From Bacteroidaceae bacterium (GTDB lineage: Bacteria; Bacteroidota; Bacteroidia; Bacteroidales; Bacteroidaceae), in the NCBI GenBank assembly GCA_017520935.1, contig JAFXEF010000001.1, positions 1 to 64,000 of the forward strand: 64,000 bases of DNA, written 5' to 3'. Made by a program: the position numbers and the translations under genes. Position 1 is the first letter of the stretch, and every line of letters starts with the position of its first letter. The notes beneath the pieces were generated by a model. The model saw only the letters and a program-made list of their open reading frames with translations, was not told the DNA's origin and did not search any database. Shown here piece by piece: positions 35,261-60,814 of this stretch.

Positions 35261-35435
35261 AGTCGTGTCGGTTTAGACTGGGAAACTCATCAATTATATC
35301 TGAAACCGAGGACAGCTTCGACTTCCAATGGCGGGCCACGCCCCGTAAGGGGTAACCTTGAGTCGGTGGATTACAAAGGGGGCGAGCACTCAAATCCTAT
35401 TTCTCGGAGTTTCATCGCATCAATCCGGCACGACT
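35261..35435 (+). ncRNA. ssrS: 6S-like RNA (Bacteroidales-1 motif)
   Basis: The ends pair: 35261-35271 with 35425-35435 (11 bp, one G-U). Inside, GAAACTC (35282-35288) pairs with GAGTTTC (35407-35413), then a one-sided 17-nt bubble leads to CCGAG/CTCGG and an apical region with GGCG-CGCC and CCCCGTAAGGGG hairpins. A long rod with a central bubble is the 6S RNA architecture, which mimics an open promoter to hold RNA polymerase. I recall the Bacteroidales-1 motif as lying downstream of the L20 gene, and later proposed to be 6S RNA. The position fits exactly. The 5' end is uncertain; the best visible -7 element is 170 nt upstream, so processing or an unseen promoter is needed. Confidence 0.75.
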
Positions 35436-35478
35436 TCTTTATATATAAACGCCAAAAGGTATTAATAACGTATTTGCT

Positions 35479-54593: not shown

Positions 54594-54787
54594 ACGTTAC
54601 TTCTTAAGTGTAGGCAAAATTACAAAATACTATTCAAAAAGCCTATAAATTGTAGAATAAAAATTGGAGGAAGAGGCTGCATGAAAGGTCCGCGAGGTCT
54701 TGAGCTACGATAAAAACGAAGCGTAAGTTACGATAAAAGGCAGTGTTCTCTTATGGGAAATATGCAGAGACTATGATATAAAGTAAA

Positions 54788-54871
54788 ATCATAACTTATG
54801 ATTACTTAATCACAACTTATAATTAAGTAATCAGAACTTGTGATTACCTAATCAGAACTTATGATTTGTGT
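54788..54871. repeat. Four 21-bp tandem repeats of the ATCAnAACTTATGATTACTTA type
   Basis: Units start at 54788, 54809, 54830 and 54851. Each contains an imperfect AATCATAAGTT/AACTTATGATT dyad. Same copy number and nearly the same period as the arrays at 20577, 26324 and 26643, with a different sequence. Confidence 0.85.
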
Positions 54872-55020
54872 TTACATAAAGGGTAGTAAAGGGTTTACCT
54901 CTATTAAAACCAACTTTTTATTCATTTGATTATATTTTTTTTGATAAGCTATTCTGAATTTATATCGAAATCATGTTAAAATAATTCTTCTTCCATTGTT
55001 CGTGTTTCAGAATTAAGTTG

Positions 55021-55032: not shown

Positions 55033-55360
55033 ATCTCTACGCCGATACCTTGATTTAGTTGTACGGATTAAGGTGGCAGGGTGGGGATGACATAATGGAA
55101 AAAGCGTTTACTTAGCGCTTGTTTTGACGTGTGGAAATCTGGCAGTTTCAACAATCTTGTCAAAAACAAGGCAACGGTAGATGCCTATGGGTATGTTATA
55201 TCAAAACATTCAGGGTGCTTGCGTGTTGATGCAAGTGCAGTTTGTGCATATTACATATCGGCGTGGGCTTCGGCGTTGCTCGTTTCGACAAGATGGGCGA
55301 TGCCAGAGCCTCTACACGTGGGACGAGTAACAGGTACAGATTCCCACGCTTTTTCTTTTT
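55033..55360 (+). ncRNA. Candidate structured leader or small RNA ending in alternative hairpins
   Basis: CTTGTTTTGAC pairs with GTCAAAAACAAG early on; CTTGC-GCAAG forms a hairpin in the middle. The 3' part has GGCTTCGGCGTTGCTC (55266-55281) pairing with 55295-55310 at 15 of 16 positions including several G-U pairs. CCCACGC (55343-55349), just before a T-run (55350-55360), can pair either with GCGTGGG (55261-55267) or, as CGTGGGA/TCCCACG, with 55317-55323. Two exclusive pairings before a U-run suggest an attenuator or a free small RNA. The string looks familiar to me as a multicopy Bacteroidales intergenic sequence, which I cannot confirm. Confidence 0.5.
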
Positions 55361-55417
55361 AAATAAGGTATTGCCGAGTCTGGGGAGTCTATAGGCTGCA
55401 AAATTCATTTTGGCAGT

Positions 55418-55783
55418 ATGAAGAAGTGTGGGTGCATGTTGATTTTGGCTTTGACGCTAACGTCATGTAGTCCTAATGCCTGGGCCATGTTTTATGACAT
55501 TATGGAACTGACTGGAGGTGTGTTAGGGTTGACTGCAGGGGTGATTGATTTGGTCGATGGCAATAATAGCACATACAGTAGTGGCAGCTATAGTACGCAA
55601 AGGAGTGGACGTTCAAGACAAACCATTGAACGGGAAATAGCTGAATATGAAAAACGCATCGGAGAGTGTGAACGGTACATGGAGAATACAACCAACCCTG
55701 TTACACAAAGGCAGTATATGCAGACCATACAGAACTATAGGAAAATGATACAAGATCGTTACCGAGAGTTGCAAAATCTCTGA
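55418..55783 (+). CDS. Small lipoprotein with coiled coil
   Basis: 121 residues. Lipoprotein signal MKKCGCMLILALTLTSC with lipobox LTSC, a short hydrophobic Gly-rich helix (MELTGGVLGLTAGVIDLV) that could insert in a membrane, a Ser-rich linker, and a coiled coil to the end (REIAEYEKRIGECERYME and QNYRKMIQDRYRELQNL). I do not recognise the family. It is the first gene after the structured segment and 33 nt before the Ig-like lipoprotein, in the same direction as the RiPP genes, so it may belong to their operon. Confidence 0.75.
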   Translation: MKKCGCMLILALTLTSCSPNAWAMFYDIMELTGGVLGLTAGVIDLVDGNNSTYSSGSYSTQRSGRSRQTIEREIAEYEKRIGECERYMENTTNPVTQRQYMQTIQNYRKMIQDRYRELQNL

Positions 55784-55816
55784 AATAAGGAATTATCTAA
55801 ATTAAACACAACAATT

Positions 55817-57538
55817 ATGAAAAAAAAGATTTTTATGCTGATGGCATTGGCATTGTGCTTTACATTCAATGCTTGTGACCCTACTGTTGATCCAATTCCA
55901 GAAGAGGGTGTGGACATTTCGTTGAACAAAGAAGAATTGGTACTTGAAATTGGGCAGAGCGAGAGGCTTGTTGCTGCTTTTGACCCTGTTGATGCTTCTA
56001 ATACAGCCCATACGTGGAGTAGTGGCAACCCAAAGATTGCTTCGGTTGACGAAACGGGCAATGTTACGGGTGTGAGTGTAGGCGAGACAACAGTTGCAGT
56101 CAAAGCTCTGGATGGCGGCAAGATGGCGACATGCCGAGTAACCATCGTTGAGAAGTTTATCTCTGTTACAGGAATCACGCTTGACCAATCGGAATGTACA
56201 ATGATCGAGGGTGACGAATTGGTCTTGGTGGCTACAATCAAGCCATCCAATGCATCGAAGAAAGCGGTCAGTTGGAGTTCCGACAACAAGGAGGTGGCCG
56301 TGGTGAGCACCGAGGGACGCATCACAGCTATAGCCCCGGGTGAAGCAACCATCACTGCAACCACTGAGGATGGTGAGAAGACGGCATCGTGCAAAATTAC
56401 TGTCATTGCGCGTGGAGCAAAAATTTCGGAAGCCGATGTGACAAATATCACATCCAACTCGGCACTTGTTACAGGCCACGTAGAGGTGTCGGGTGTAGAG
56501 GTCTCTGAAGTGGGCCTTTGCTGGGCTACCACACAGAATCCTACCATAGAGAACCAGAGCATCAAGTCTTCATCGAAGCAGGGCGTGATCTATACCATCC
56601 GTAATCTATCGGCCGAAACAACTTATTACGTACGTCTGTACGCGGTTATTGATGGTTCTGTAAAGTATGGTAACCAAAACATCTTCGCCACCCTGCCAGC
56701 TGTTGATTTTGATATCCCCGAGATTTCGGATATCGCAGCCCACTCTACGGTAGTGAATGGTGTTGTTTATGCCAATGGCTCGAAGTTGGATGAAACGGGA
56801 GTGGTATATGGCACAGCCTCTATGCCTACAATAGACAACAACAAGGTGGTAGTTTCTGATGAGAATATCAATTGTTCTATATATGACTTGCTGGCCGATA
56901 CTCGTTACTATGTGCGCTTATATGCTGTGGTAAATGGTCAAAGCTATTATAGTGAAGAGGTGGAGTTTGTGACTAATGAAGAACTGATTGTTAAATTTGC
57001 TCCTACAGACTATTATGAAAACCGACTTATATTGAAAGCGAAAGCCCCCAAAGGATATACAAGTGTGGAGGTATGCTACAATACCAAGCCGAATCCTAAG
57101 ATTACCGATAATACCGCTACGGCTACATTAGATAAGAATGGTGATTTTGTATGGGATTTGACTGGACTCGCTAAGGGTACTACCTATTATATCAGACCTT
57201 ATAGTAGAACTGGGGCGAAGATTGATTATCATGAAGAGGAGGTATCAACAGAAACCTTGGGAGGAACTTATGGCTTTTCAAATGGATCATCATCATACTA
57301 TGGTGACCGTAAACAAAGAATGCATATAGATTACGTATTGCCTCAGGGTACATATATGGTTAGTTATGAGAAGAATGTTTATACTTATGGAGTTAATAAT
57401 ACTGAAACTGGAGAATATAAACAGTCAATCTATATTGATGGAGGGAAAGGTACGTTCTATATAGAGAAAGACCGTTATAATGCTCACGGTGAAGTATATG
57501 TGATGGACATAGAAAGAAATATTATATTTCACTATTAA
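55817..57538 (+). CDS. Ig-like (BIG2) and FN3-like domain lipoprotein
   Basis: 573 residues with signal and lipobox FNAC near residue 19. Two bacterial Ig-like group 2 domains (about 30-115 and 116-200) show VSVGETTVAVKALDGG and IAPGEATITATTEDGEKTASCKI. Three repeats of about 95 residues (200-480) have the FN3-like pattern ADVTNITSNSALVTGHV and SAETTYYVRLYAVIDG. The last 90 residues are Tyr/Gly-rich (GFSNGSSSYYGDRKQRM) and end FHY. It is probably surface exposed and adhesive. It lies 48 nt upstream of the Cys-rich precursor and in the same direction; a direct role with the modified peptide is possible but not shown. The 3' third is AT-rich. Confidence 0.82.
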   Translation: MKKKIFMLMALALCFTFNACDPTVDPIPEEGVDISLNKEELVLEIGQSERLVAAFDPVDASNTAHTWSSGNPKIASVDETGNVTGVSVGETTVAVKALDGGKMATCRVTIVEKFISVTGITLDQSECTMIEGDELVLVATIKPSNASKKAVSWSSDNKEVAVVSTEGRITAIAPGEATITATTEDGEKTASCKITVIARGAKISEADVTNITSNSALVTGHVEVSGVEVSEVGLCWATTQNPTIENQSIKSSSKQGVIYTIRNLSAETTYYVRLYAVIDGSVKYGNQNIFATLPAVDFDIPEISDIAAHSTVVNGVVYANGSKLDETGVVYGTASMPTIDNNKVVVSDENINCSIYDLLADTRYYVRLYAVVNGQSYYSEEVEFVTNEELIVKFAPTDYYENRLILKAKAPKGYTSVEVCYNTKPNPKITDNTATATLDKNGDFVWDLTGLAKGTTYYIRPYSRTGAKIDYHEEEVSTETLGGTYGFSNGSSSYYGDRKQRMHIDYVLPQGTYMVSYEKNVYTYGVNNTETGEYKQSIYIDGGKGTFYIEKDRYNAHGEVYVMDIERNIIFHY

Positions 57539-57586
57539 ACAAAGTGGAAAATCAATATTACATGATTCATTATTAAATCATTTCCA

Positions 57587-58102
57587 ATGGATCTCGAACG
57601 CAGAAAATTCTTTAAGACGGTAGTGACCAAGGTACTACCGATTTTAGGCACCATAGTTGTTGCTCCCAACCTGTTATCCTCCTGTTGTCCCGATGACCTT
57701 GTATTAGGTTGTGGCAATAGTTGTATGGGAACGGCACAAAGTGGTTGTGGAACTTCGTGTAGCAGTTCATGTGTAGGTACAGCTCAAGGTGGATGTGGTA
57801 GCAGTTGCCAATCCTCATGCTCGGGCTCGTGCAGTGAAGGTTGTGAGGGGAGTGCCAAGGCTGCTGGATGTGATGGATGTGCAGCATCGTGCAACAGCTC
57901 GTGCTCTGAATCATCCACCGCTGCTGCTTGTTCAGGATGTGGCAACAGTTGTAATCGGGCTTGTGCACAATCATGTCTATCGACTTGCCGGAACACTTGT
58001 GATGTCACTTGTCAGTTGTCGTGTAAAACGACCTGTAGAGATGGATGCTATCAGGGTTGCTTAGGAACTTGTAAAGGTTACTGTACAATCTTAAACGATT
58101 AG
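57587..58102 (+). CDS. Cys-rich CXXX-repeat RiPP precursor
   Basis: 171 residues, 30 Cys. Residues 1-32 are a leader: ERRKFFK (twin-arginine-like), a hydrophobic stretch and LSSC, a lipobox ending at Cys33. From residue 42 to 166, 26 Cys fall at positions equal to 2 modulo 4; Cys118 to Cys166 is an unbroken run of 13 at every fourth residue. Only Cys33, 34, 95 and 115 are off register. The third X of nearly every unit is Ser, Thr, Gly or Ala. The register gaps at 50 and 66 lie in the repeated GTAQ-G motif. Gene order (stop 4 nt before a radical SAM gene) marks it as substrate of the downstream enzymes. Expected modification is Cys-based cross-linking; the product is unknown. Confidence 0.9.
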   Translation: MDLERRKFFKTVVTKVLPILGTIVVAPNLLSSCCPDDLVLGCGNSCMGTAQSGCGTSCSSSCVGTAQGGCGSSCQSSCSGSCSEGCEGSAKAAGCDGCAASCNSSCSESSTAAACSGCGNSCNRACAQSCLSTCRNTCDVTCQLSCKTTCRDGCYQGCLGTCKGYCTILND

Positions 58103-58106
58103 GCTG

Positions 58107-59360
58107 ATGGCACAATATAAAAGCAACACCAAAGACTGGCAGTCTGGAATGGCGAAAAGCATCACCTTTATCGTTACTAAGGACTGCCAGCTTGCCTGCA
58201 AATATTGTTATCTTGTAGGCAAGAACACGAAAGAGCGCATGCCGTGGGAAATCGCCAAGCAGGCGATAGACTATATCCTCAGTCATGAAAAGGATTTCAA
58301 GGAAGAGTCTGTGATTTGGGACTTCATCGGTGGCGAACCCTTCTTGGAGATAGATTTAATAGACCGTATCTGTGACTACCTGAAAGTAGAAATGTATAGG
58401 AGAAATCATCATTGGTTCGACTCCTACCGCTTCAGTCTCTCCACCAATGGTATCAATTACCATACGGAGAAGGTACAGAACTTTATAGAGAAGAACCGCA
58501 GCCACTTGAGCATAGGCATTACGATTGATGGCACAAAACGGAAGCATGATCTTAACCGTATATGGAAGACTCCAGAGATGGAACGGGGCATTACCCCCAA
58601 CAACCCATCGGAAGAGCGGGGTTCGTATGACGATGTGGTACGTAATATTCCATTATGGTTGCAGCAATTTCCTGGTGGGTATACAAAGGTGACAGTCAGC
58701 AGTGCCGACATACCTTATATAAAGGAGAGTGTACTGCACTTATTTAGTCTTGGCATTCATGAAGTCAATATCAATTGTGTGTTTGAGGATGTATGGAACG
58801 AGGGGGATGACAAACTCTTTGAGGAACAGTTGATGGAACTGGCCGATGCTATTATCGACAATAACCTATACAAGGAGAATGCATGCTCGTTCTTTGTAGA
58901 CCATATAGGAAAGCCTTTGGACTGCACCTTGCAGAATCAGAACTGGTGTGGAGCAGGAAGAATGTTATCAATTGATACAGCAGGCAACTTTTATCCTTGC
59001 ACACGCTTTGCGCAGTATTCACTTCGCAACAAGCAGGCATGGATTATAGGTAATATTCATGATGGTATCGATAAGAACAAGTTGCGTCCGTTCCTCACGC
59101 TAGACCGTTGTACCCAGAGCACACAGGTATGTATTGACTGTGAGGTGACAAGCGGTTGCGCTTGGTGTCAAGGCGAGAACTATGATGCAGCTGATACTCC
59201 TACGGTATACCAAAGAACTACGGCAATCTGCAAAATGCATAAGGCGCGTGTAAGGGCCAACAATTATTATTGGAACAAACTGTTCCGAAAGTTAGAGTTG
59301 GAAGGTGAGCGCGAAGCCTATGAGAAAAACAAACGTGAGTCTAACGTAAGCAACTGTTGA
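58107..59360 (+). CDS. Radical SAM/SPASM peptide maturase, CXXX-repeat target type
   Basis: 417 residues. CX3CX2C at Cys27, Cys31 and Cys34 (FIVTKDCQLACKYCYLVG) binds the radical SAM [4Fe-4S] cluster; IWDFIGGEPFLE is the GGE SAM-contact motif. The C-terminal third is SPASM-like with WCGAGRMLSIDTAGNFYPC, then CTQSTQVCIDC and TSGCAWC, enough Cys for two auxiliary clusters. I recall a family named 'radical SAM peptide maturase, CXXX-repeat target' (TIGR04115); the fit is strong by context. It probably abstracts hydrogen from the precursor to form thioether links. It sits 4 nt downstream of the precursor and 4 nt upstream of the next maturase. Confidence 0.92.
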   Translation: MAQYKSNTKDWQSGMAKSITFIVTKDCQLACKYCYLVGKNTKERMPWEIAKQAIDYILSHEKDFKEESVIWDFIGGEPFLEIDLIDRICDYLKVEMYRRNHHWFDSYRFSLSTNGINYHTEKVQNFIEKNRSHLSIGITIDGTKRKHDLNRIWKTPEMERGITPNNPSEERGSYDDVVRNIPLWLQQFPGGYTKVTVSSADIPYIKESVLHLFSLGIHEVNINCVFEDVWNEGDDKLFEEQLMELADAIIDNNLYKENACSFFVDHIGKPLDCTLQNQNWCGAGRMLSIDTAGNFYPCTRFAQYSLRNKQAWIIGNIHDGIDKNKLRPFLTLDRCTQSTQVCIDCEVTSGCAWCQGENYDAADTPTVYQRTTAICKMHKARVRANNYYWNKLFRKLELEGEREAYEKNKRESNVSNC

Positions 59361-59364
59361 TACG

Positions 59365-60333
59365 ATGCTGAAATATCTTATAATACAATTGGACGATACA
59401 AGTACATCGTATTGCCATTACGGAAATCTTAGGAAAGATCACAGACTTATCTCGTTGGAGAATCTGAAAGCTGTTATTCTTTTTGCTATGAAAGAGAACC
59501 TGACAGTTCAGTTCGTATATCCGAAGTATGAGTTACCGGAAGAATACAAGGAGGCTATCCGTAGTATCGACCATAGCAAGATAGTTCCTATGGGAAGTAA
59601 GGAGAAAGGCGATGTAGTGGTCCTTGAAGGATGGGAAGAATTAGATGGATGTTCGTTGCTTCCCGACATAGCCTATGTGCTTCGTACAGGAAAAAAGGAA
59701 CTATTCGACAATTATACGCAGATACCTGATATATTACCCAGAGTCGCTCGTTTGAATGTGGTGATTACAGATGTAGAAACTTTCGAAGAGAAGGATTTCT
59801 TTACGTATAAAAAAGTGCTGGCCACGTTATCAAAAGAAGTTGAATCGCTTTATGCAAAAGGTTTGTCGCCTCAATTGAATTTGTTGACCGACCGTATGAT
59901 GTTGGATGGGATGAACAACTGCAATGCAGGTTGGGAGAGTATTACACTTGCTCCTGATGGAAGGTTCTATGTCTGTCCTGCTTTTTATTTGGCTGATGAG
60001 GATGAAGACTATGGTTTGGGCAAATCGAAGTATTCAATTGGGGATTTGGAGAATGGGTTGGATATAAAGAATCCTCAACTCTATAAGTTGTCCCACGCTC
60101 CGCTGTGTCGTAACTGTGATGCTTACCAATGTAAACGTTGTGTATGGCTCAATCGTAAGATGACGTATGAGGTAAATACGCCCAGTCACGAGCAGTGTAT
60201 GATGGCTCACTTGGAACGCAACGCAAGTCGTGAGTTGCTGATGGCTATACGCAAACATGGCACGTTCTTGCCGGGAATGGATATAAAGGAAATCTCGTAT
60301 CTCGATCCCTTTGATGTGAGAAAGGAATGGTAA
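59365..60333 (+). CDS. CXXX-repeat peptide maturase, SPASM-like without radical SAM motif
   Basis: 322 residues. There is no CX3CX2C anywhere, so it is not itself a radical SAM enzyme. The first 190 residues (LKYLIIQLDDTSTSYCHYG, a SLENLKAVILFAMKENLTVQF helix) look like a reduced partial barrel. The C-terminal 120 residues repeat the partner's cluster domain: CNAGWESITLAPDGRFYVCP, then APLCRNCDAYQCKRCVWLNR and PSHEQC. This matches my memory of the 'CXXX repeat peptide maturase' family (TIGR04119). It may bind iron-sulfur clusters and act as a partner or scaffold for the radical SAM enzyme. It starts 4 nt after that gene; its AT-richness differs from core genes. Confidence 0.88.
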   Translation: MLKYLIIQLDDTSTSYCHYGNLRKDHRLISLENLKAVILFAMKENLTVQFVYPKYELPEEYKEAIRSIDHSKIVPMGSKEKGDVVVLEGWEELDGCSLLPDIAYVLRTGKKELFDNYTQIPDILPRVARLNVVITDVETFEEKDFFTYKKVLATLSKEVESLYAKGLSPQLNLLTDRMMLDGMNNCNAGWESITLAPDGRFYVCPAFYLADEDEDYGLGKSKYSIGDLENGLDIKNPQLYKLSHAPLCRNCDAYQCKRCVWLNRKMTYEVNTPSHEQCMMAHLERNASRELLMAIRKHGTFLPGMDIKEISYLDPFDVRKEW

Positions 60334-60355
60334 ATCAATAAATACATTAATATAT

Positions 60356-60625
60356 ATGGAAAAGAAAGTGGTAGGCTCAGTAACCGAGTCGGAGAAAAAT
60401 GAGATTCAATCGCTGTTTGAACGCAGAAACGGTTTAAATGAATTAGCAAAGATTGTAACTGCGGATAATGATGCATTGTACGAAAGGTTGTTAAAGGATA
60501 TGAGCGAAACAGCTGCCAAATTTCAAGGCTGGTGGAATCGTATGGCTCAAAAGTATCAATGGGAGAGTACTCCCGAGGGAAACTGGGAGATAAACTTCGA
60601 TACTTGCGAAATATATCTAATGTAG
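60356..60625 (+). CDS. CXXX-repeat peptide modification system protein
   Basis: 89 residues, EKKVVGSVTESEKNEIQSLFERRNGLNELAKI then LYERLLKDMSETAAKFQGWWNRMAQKY: all helical, with a WW pair, no Cys in the helical part (one near the end). Small helical proteins of this kind close such clusters; I recall the family name 'CXXX repeat peptide modification system protein' (TIGR04116). It could bind the precursor leader or bridge the enzymes. It lies 22 nt after the maturase and is the last gene of the operon. Confidence 0.82.
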   Translation: MEKKVVGSVTESEKNEIQSLFERRNGLNELAKIVTADNDALYERLLKDMSETAAKFQGWWNRMAQKYQWESTPEGNWEINFDTCEIYLM

Positions 60626-60783: not shown

Positions 60784-60814
60784 AAAAGCGCCGTATCGAG
60801 GATACGGCGCTTTT
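60784..60814. terminator. Bidirectional terminator between RiPP operon and kbl
   Basis: AAAAGCGCCGTATC, GAG loop, GATACGGCGCTTTT: perfect 14-bp stem with A and T tracts on both sides. About 160 non-coding bases separate it from the last RiPP gene. Confidence 0.9.

Follow-up and report, generated by a model that had tools for sequence, protein, structure and literature searches.

The first 64,000 nucleotides of contig JAFXEF010000001.1 from a Bacteroidaceae bacterium (GenBank assembly GCA_017520935.1; hereafter, the window) carry a CXXX-repeat locus, in which a cysteine-repeat precursor is followed by the radical S-adenosylmethionine (SAM)/SPASM maturase TIGR04115, its partner TIGR04119 and the small accessory protein TIGR04116. 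We propose that the product of this locus is probably a radical-SAM-modified cysteine-repeat lipoprotein which is matured in the cytoplasm before a dedicated twin-arginine translocation (Tat) translocase exports it. The gene content suggests that these gut-type bacteria complete the protein internally and display it on their surface afterwards. A sequence-only reading of the window had recognized the locus as encoding a ribosomally synthesized and post-translationally modified peptide (RiPP); the export route, which it overlooked, is from the gene content best read as Tat, with a dedicated TatAC encoded elsewhere in the genome (2.9 Mb, 64 contigs, 87% complete; the window is part of its contig C54).

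A cysteine-repeat precursor with a twin-arginine leader

The sequence-only reading had described the four core genes (57587-60625) as an operon that runs to a single strong terminator. The same open reading frames (ORFs) were recovered at the same coordinates with gaps of 4, 4 and 22 nt, which bears out the operon (Table 1). The terminator stands in part: the hairpin exists, ~160 nt past the last stop codon of the core genes, but it is a symmetric palindrome flanked by convergent genes, and the scan reported it on the opposite strand alone.

Table 1 Features of the CXXX-repeat locus, in window coordinates.
Feature	Position	Strand	Remarks
Big_2 x2 / fn3 lipoprotein, probable partner of the window precursor subtype	55817..57538	+	573 aa; Pfam
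CXXX-repeat precursor	57587..58102	+	171 aa, 30 Cys; exact spacing of 4 commonest
Twin-arginine motif RRKFFK, residues 5-10	57599..57616	+	sequence; RRxFF in related precursors
Lipobox L-S-S-C, lipidation site Cys33, then C-P-D-D	57674..57685	+	sequence
CXXX repeat region, Cys42 to Cys166	57710..58084	+	sequence
Radical SAM/SPASM maturase TIGR04115	58107..59360	+	417 aa; 625.5 bits
TIGR04119 partner, predicted pseudo-radical-SAM barrel + SPASM domain	59365..60333	+	322 aa; 235.7 bits
TIGR04116 accessory, proposed twin-arginine-leader chaperone	60356..60625	+	89 aa; 99.4 bits
Palindromic hairpin (14 bp), probably a terminator that convergent genes share	60784..60814	.	minus-strand call; symmetric sequence

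The repeat claimed for the precursor is well above random expectation: the region after the signal contains 21 pairs of cysteines at positions i and i+4, compared with 6.1 on average, and at most 14, in 20,000 shuffles, and among the 452 ORFs of the window the precursor alone passes a repeat filter. Its N-terminus, MDLERRKFFKTVVTKVLPILGTIVVAPNLLSSC, runs from a twin-arginine motif through a hydrophobic stretch to a lipobox; the exported lipoprotein character ascribed to it earlier is supported. The twin arginine precedes the hydrophobic stretch (ERRKFFK..LPILGTIVVA), as in a Tat substrate, and the leader beyond RRKFFK includes L17-P18-I19-L20-G21.

These leader features are conserved. RRxFF occurs at the same position in 157 distinct precursors of related loci, found with a search pattern that required the second arginine and FF and left the first arginine free to be lysine; the first residue is arginine in 157/157, and a proline follows at +13 in 150/157. 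Complete cysteine-repeat ORFs outside the pattern have twin arginines too (RRTFLK, RRQLFR and similar), and the remaining ones are fragments or, in L125, an unrelated membrane protein. A rough pattern detects a lipobox in about 43 of the 157 precursors, frequently with acidic residues after it, as in the Bacteroidetes lipoprotein export signal; the others appear to have a signal-peptidase-I-type cleavage site. Cysteine makes up 21% of the precursor bodies, with up to about 60 cysteines in a substrate, and the other repeat residues are variable, mainly S, G, T, N and K, with Ser, Gly or Thr directly ahead of the next cysteine in 71% of repeats. Some precursors (L035, L043, L044) have a non-repeat segment between or ahead of repeat blocks; in L043 the repeats are fused to a globular domain with a weak match, under the cut-off, to Fib_succ_major. 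One locus, L080, has eight CXXX-repeat ORFs, which flank the radical SAM gene on either side.

Genomic linkage to tatAC and a dedicated TatC

The Tat machine exports pre-folded proteins. We mapped 119 TIGR04115 loci, comprising 37 from the same family (the window included), 80 named genome loci and two database records, one of which is a distant Anaerococcus plasmid; dropping duplicates and Anaerococcus left 104 distinct loci. A CXXX precursor with twin arginines is present in all 101 loci that have at least 700 bp upstream, as the sequence-only reading would have it for a cysteine-repeat gene at homologous loci. Where more than 5.5 kb is available downstream, TIGR04119 is found in 76/76 loci, TIGR04116 in 74/76 and tatA together with tatC in 59/76, at a median distance of 2.7 kb from the enzyme start.

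The genome of the window contains a second, partly assembled CXXX locus (L070) at the end of contig C50, which encodes TIGR04119, a precursor (MANMKRREFFRRVAKGLPILIL...), TIGR04116, a 131-residue ORF, TatA and TatC; its radical SAM gene would lie past the contig end. Pfam confirmed TatA_B_E and TatC at this locus and likewise at one other. A further TatC is encoded on contig C15, and the window precursor would use either the C50 or the C15 protein in trans.

The TatC of CXXX loci is, by phylogeny and gene distribution, a dedicated paralogue. Within the family, TatC is present in 34/35 CXXX-positive and 203/266 CXXX-negative genomes, and at least two copies in 22/35 versus 10/266, although the p values for these differences (Fisher, 0.003 and 4e-17, respectively) overstate the evidence because related genomes are not independent. 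The CXXX-locus TatC is the only one found in G085, G099, G125, G240 and G247, and some CXXX-negative relatives, such as G015 and G043 (99% completeness), have no TatC at all. A first tree grouped 35 of the 37 locus TatC in a single clade and placed the two from metagenome-assembled genomes of Lentimicrobiaceae outside it. The clade also contained two further sequences which proved to be CXXX-linked: G299:C45, whose contig starts with TIGR04119-TIGR04116-tatA, and G077:C85, which is on the CXXX contig itself together with TIGR04116. In a tree that leaves out the two Lentimicrobiaceae proteins, a branch with support of 100/99 separates 37 CXXX-linked TatC from 38 others.

One complete CXXX-tatAC locus (L075) lies in a record labelled ‘Bacteriophage sp.’ (MT837480.1, 1-6791), together with short unassigned ORFs. 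We rejected a link to phage: the ORFs examined in this record are CXXX genes, tatAC and short unassigned frames, and the precursor matches no phage. The record is probably bacterial DNA mislabelled as phage.

The enzyme pair, the accessory and the lipoprotein partner

All three family assignments of the sequence-only reading stand in hidden Markov model searches. The maturase matches TIGR04115 over its full length at 625.5 bits (curated cut-off 350), and its two companions score 235.7 bits against TIGR04119 (cut-off 150) and 99.4 bits against TIGR04116 (cut-off 50); the best scores of the enzymes are to the CXXX families rather than to unrelated SPASM families. The maturase has the cysteine complement expected of an active radical SAM enzyme, with CX3CX2C at residues 27, 31 and 34 and SPASM cysteines at 281, 298, 342, 345, 351, 354 and 375. 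These positions are invariant in 22 aligned sequences, including a distant fusion protein from Anaerococcus. The nearest sequence with a solved structure is CteB (PDB code 5WGG), the thioether-forming SCIFF maturase (E 8.6e-22).

The 322-residue TIGR04119 protein had been taken for a SPASM-only partner, which its predicted structure contradicts. The AlphaFold model (pLDDT, the predicted local distance difference test score, of 90) matches CteB with a Z score of 21.2 over residues 1-296, so it spans the whole radical SAM barrel as well as the SPASM domain. The SPASM cysteines are invariant in 44 sequences, none of which (0/44) has CX3CX2C in its first 180 residues. Since the whole fold and the SPASM cysteines are kept and the SAM-cluster cysteines are missing, model and alignment identify the protein as a predicted pseudo-radical-SAM/SPASM partner, a pseudoenzyme. 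On Anaerococcus prevotii plasmid pAPRE01 (L074), TIGR04115 and a TIGR04119-like C-terminal part are joined in one protein of 728-729 residues, whose gene adjoins a class III lanthionine synthetase and ATP-binding cassette (ABC) transporters; L064 and L065 have two TIGR04115-like enzymes side by side.

The AlphaFold model of the TIGR04116 protein (pLDDT 93.6) shows a helical hairpin with short strands, for which a fold search of the PDB returned no significant match. Its identity as a RiPP recognition element is not supported, given the predicted hairpin and the lack of a significant PDB match. As a natural control, three loci from another family of the phylum (L208-L210) have a short precursor that lacks twin arginines and keeps ‘KTLPGLAF’, and an ABC transporter stands where tatAC would be; TIGR04116 was not found anywhere in these three genomes. 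The Anaerococcus plasmid locus also has ABC transporters, and no Tat component is among its annotated genes. L206 and L207, which have Tat-type lipoprotein precursors, encode TIGR04116 and TIGR04119 as a fusion in one long frame. Apart from G259, TIGR04116 goes together with the twin-arginine leader, and from this we infer that it binds or proofreads the leader. LPxLG appears to be the part of the leader common to both export types, and is perhaps what the enzymes read.

Both lipoproteins encoded upstream of the precursor had been put forward as partners. The Big2/Fn3 lipoprotein (Pfam Big_2, 122.7 bits; fn3 also) ends 48 nt before the precursor and is co-conserved with it: co-linear homologues with 37-42% identity are found in L034, L045, L048 and L147, and a homologue is present in precisely the loci whose precursor is of the ‘CGNSCxGTAQ’ subtype (5/5 with the window). 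It is a plausible partner of this subtype on the strength of co-occurrence, to which common descent of the locus may have contributed along with function. For the 121-residue lipoprotein, which occurs only in the window, a partner role is not supported.

Other features of the window lie outside the core genes. Directly upstream of the gene for the 121-residue lipoprotein, positions 55225-55366 form a strong RNA-like series of hairpins (z -3.5) which ends in a stem and U-tract (CCCACGCUUUUUCUUUUU) and has no Rfam match; it may be an attenuator or a small RNA. Intergenic positions 54776-54877, upstream of the locus, contain tandem imperfect palindromes like TAATCANAACTTNTGATTA that resemble an operator array. 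A Bacteroidales-1 RNA (Rfam RF01693, a suggested 6S RNA; 136.4 bits) is found at 35261-35441.

Proposed pathway, alternatives and known systems

In the pathway we propose, the precursor N-terminus would act both as RiPP leader, through the conserved LPxLG region, and as twin-arginine signal. TIGR04115 and its pseudo-radical-SAM partner would modify the repeats in the reducing cytoplasm, most likely by forming thioethers that join a cysteine sulfur to a carbon of a neighbouring residue, a chemistry suggested by the nearest enzyme relatives (CteB and PapB) and by the cysteine repeat. TIGR04116 probably holds or proofreads the leader until maturation is complete, and the finished, folded chain would then pass to TatAC, supplied in trans by the second CXXX locus or by a housekeeping TatC. 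Cleavage and lipidation at Cys33 would follow export, with probable display on the surface beside the Big2/Fn3 lipoprotein, where the product may serve as a structural or binding polypeptide. A more elaborate version, which we hold tentatively as something short of probable, is a new class of long, covalently stapled surface polypeptide, cross-linked over its whole length in the cytoplasm by the catalytic and pseudo-catalytic radical SAM pair, checked by TIGR04116 as leader chaperone and exported in fully folded form through its own TatAC, to stand on the outer surface as a lipoprotein stalk able to carry globular domains.

Several observations weigh against this pathway. No tatAC lies beside the window's own locus, as is the case in 17 of the 76 loci with sufficient downstream sequence, and use in trans therefore has to be assumed. 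G259 has a Tat-type precursor without TIGR04116, in a genome that is 88% complete. The window lipobox LSSC is followed by CPDD, which gives C-C-P-D-D from Cys33 on, with an acidic pair that differs from the tested forms of the Bacteroidetes lipoprotein export signal, CS(D/E)2 or K-(D/E)2 (PMC6222051). The sequences hold no evidence that the repeats are modified or cross-linked, and the Asp/Glu acceptor that PapB-type ranthipeptides have at i+4 (CX3D/E; PMC9413430) is absent from the repeats, where this position is mostly cysteine and Asp and Glu together make up about 5% of the precursor bodies.

The product could instead be a secreted, bacteriocin-like antimicrobial RiPP. Many relatives have short precursors of about 100 residues with a signal-peptidase-I-like site, and there can be several precursors per locus (maximum 8, in L080), as would suit such a role. 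However, the window precursor is long, bears a lipobox and is paired with the Big2/Fn3 lipoprotein; repeats are fused to a globular domain in some relatives (L043); and we saw neither an immunity gene nor a gene for a protease-transporter in the operon, so we consider an antimicrobial unlikely. We give somewhat less credence still to a metal-binding or thiol-rich lipoprotein that is largely unmodified, uses Tat for metal loading in the cytoplasm and receives from the enzyme only a minor modification, for example a single link or epimerization. Tat export does suit metal-loaded proteins, and the abundant cysteines amid variable residues fit this explanation as well, but every complete locus encodes two SPASM proteins, one with the cysteines of a full catalytic cluster, and the nearest enzyme relatives make thioethers. 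Finally, an ordinary lipoprotein exported by Sec, processed by signal peptidase II and carrying its twin arginines incidentally, is very improbable: a lipobox is present and most Bacteroidales lipoproteins are exported by Sec, but twin arginines occur in all complete precursors examined, 59/76 loci have tatAC in the same operon and the TatC form a dedicated clade.

The locus departs in several respects from the systems it resembles. The window proteins are alike to TIGR04115, TIGR04116 and TIGR04119 as defined by bioinformatics in NCBIfam, reportedly by Haft and Basu in 2011. Unlike the CXXX families as named, the window precursor scores only 30.2 bits against TIGR04117 (Cys-Xaa-Xaa-Xaa radical SAM target protein), under its cut-off of 50, and neither the family names nor the papers searched include the dedicated Tat system, the pseudo-radical-SAM fold or the Big2/Fn3 partner. 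In the open-licence literature, no publication that we found describes the CXXX families or a RiPP that has its own Tat system, and a survey of Bacteroidales RiPPs (PMC10352776) mentions neither CXXX nor Tat. The Tat linkage of CXXX loci is apparently new.

As in known Bacteroidetes surface lipoproteins (PMC6222051), close homologues of the window precursor have acidic residues after the lipidated cysteine, in the form C-x-K-(D/E)2 (L034, L045, L147). CXXX precursors differ in having Tat signals where those lipoproteins have ordinary ones, and the export motif of the window precursor is imperfect. The TIGR04115 protein shares its fold and the pattern of SPASM cysteines with the SCIFF maturase CteB and the ranthipeptide maturase PapB, yet falls under the cut-offs of both models, with 183 bits against PapB (NF047865; cut-off 340) and 113.6 bits against the SCIFF maturase (cut-off 425). 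CteB also carries some 90 N-terminal residues ahead of the aligned stretch, its recognition domain, which neither window enzyme possesses.

Leader-binding chaperones such as TorD, DmsD and NapD are part of systems which likewise combine a twin-arginine leader, cytoplasmic maturation before export and a small accessory protein. Their cargo is a cofactor-loaded oxidoreductase, whereas that of the CXXX locus would be an enzyme-modified repeat polypeptide. RiPPs are usually pictured as small peptides exported by ABC transporters after leader removal, and the proposed pathway, if true, would give RiPP biology a second export logic, supply Tat with an enzyme-modified repeat protein to carry and provide a testable function for three families so far apparently known only from bioinformatics. 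CXXX loci are present in gut bacteria available in culture, namely Bacteroides salyersiae (DSM 18765; L153, with tatAC), Xylanibacter rarus (L095) and Leyella stercorea, which makes experiments practical.

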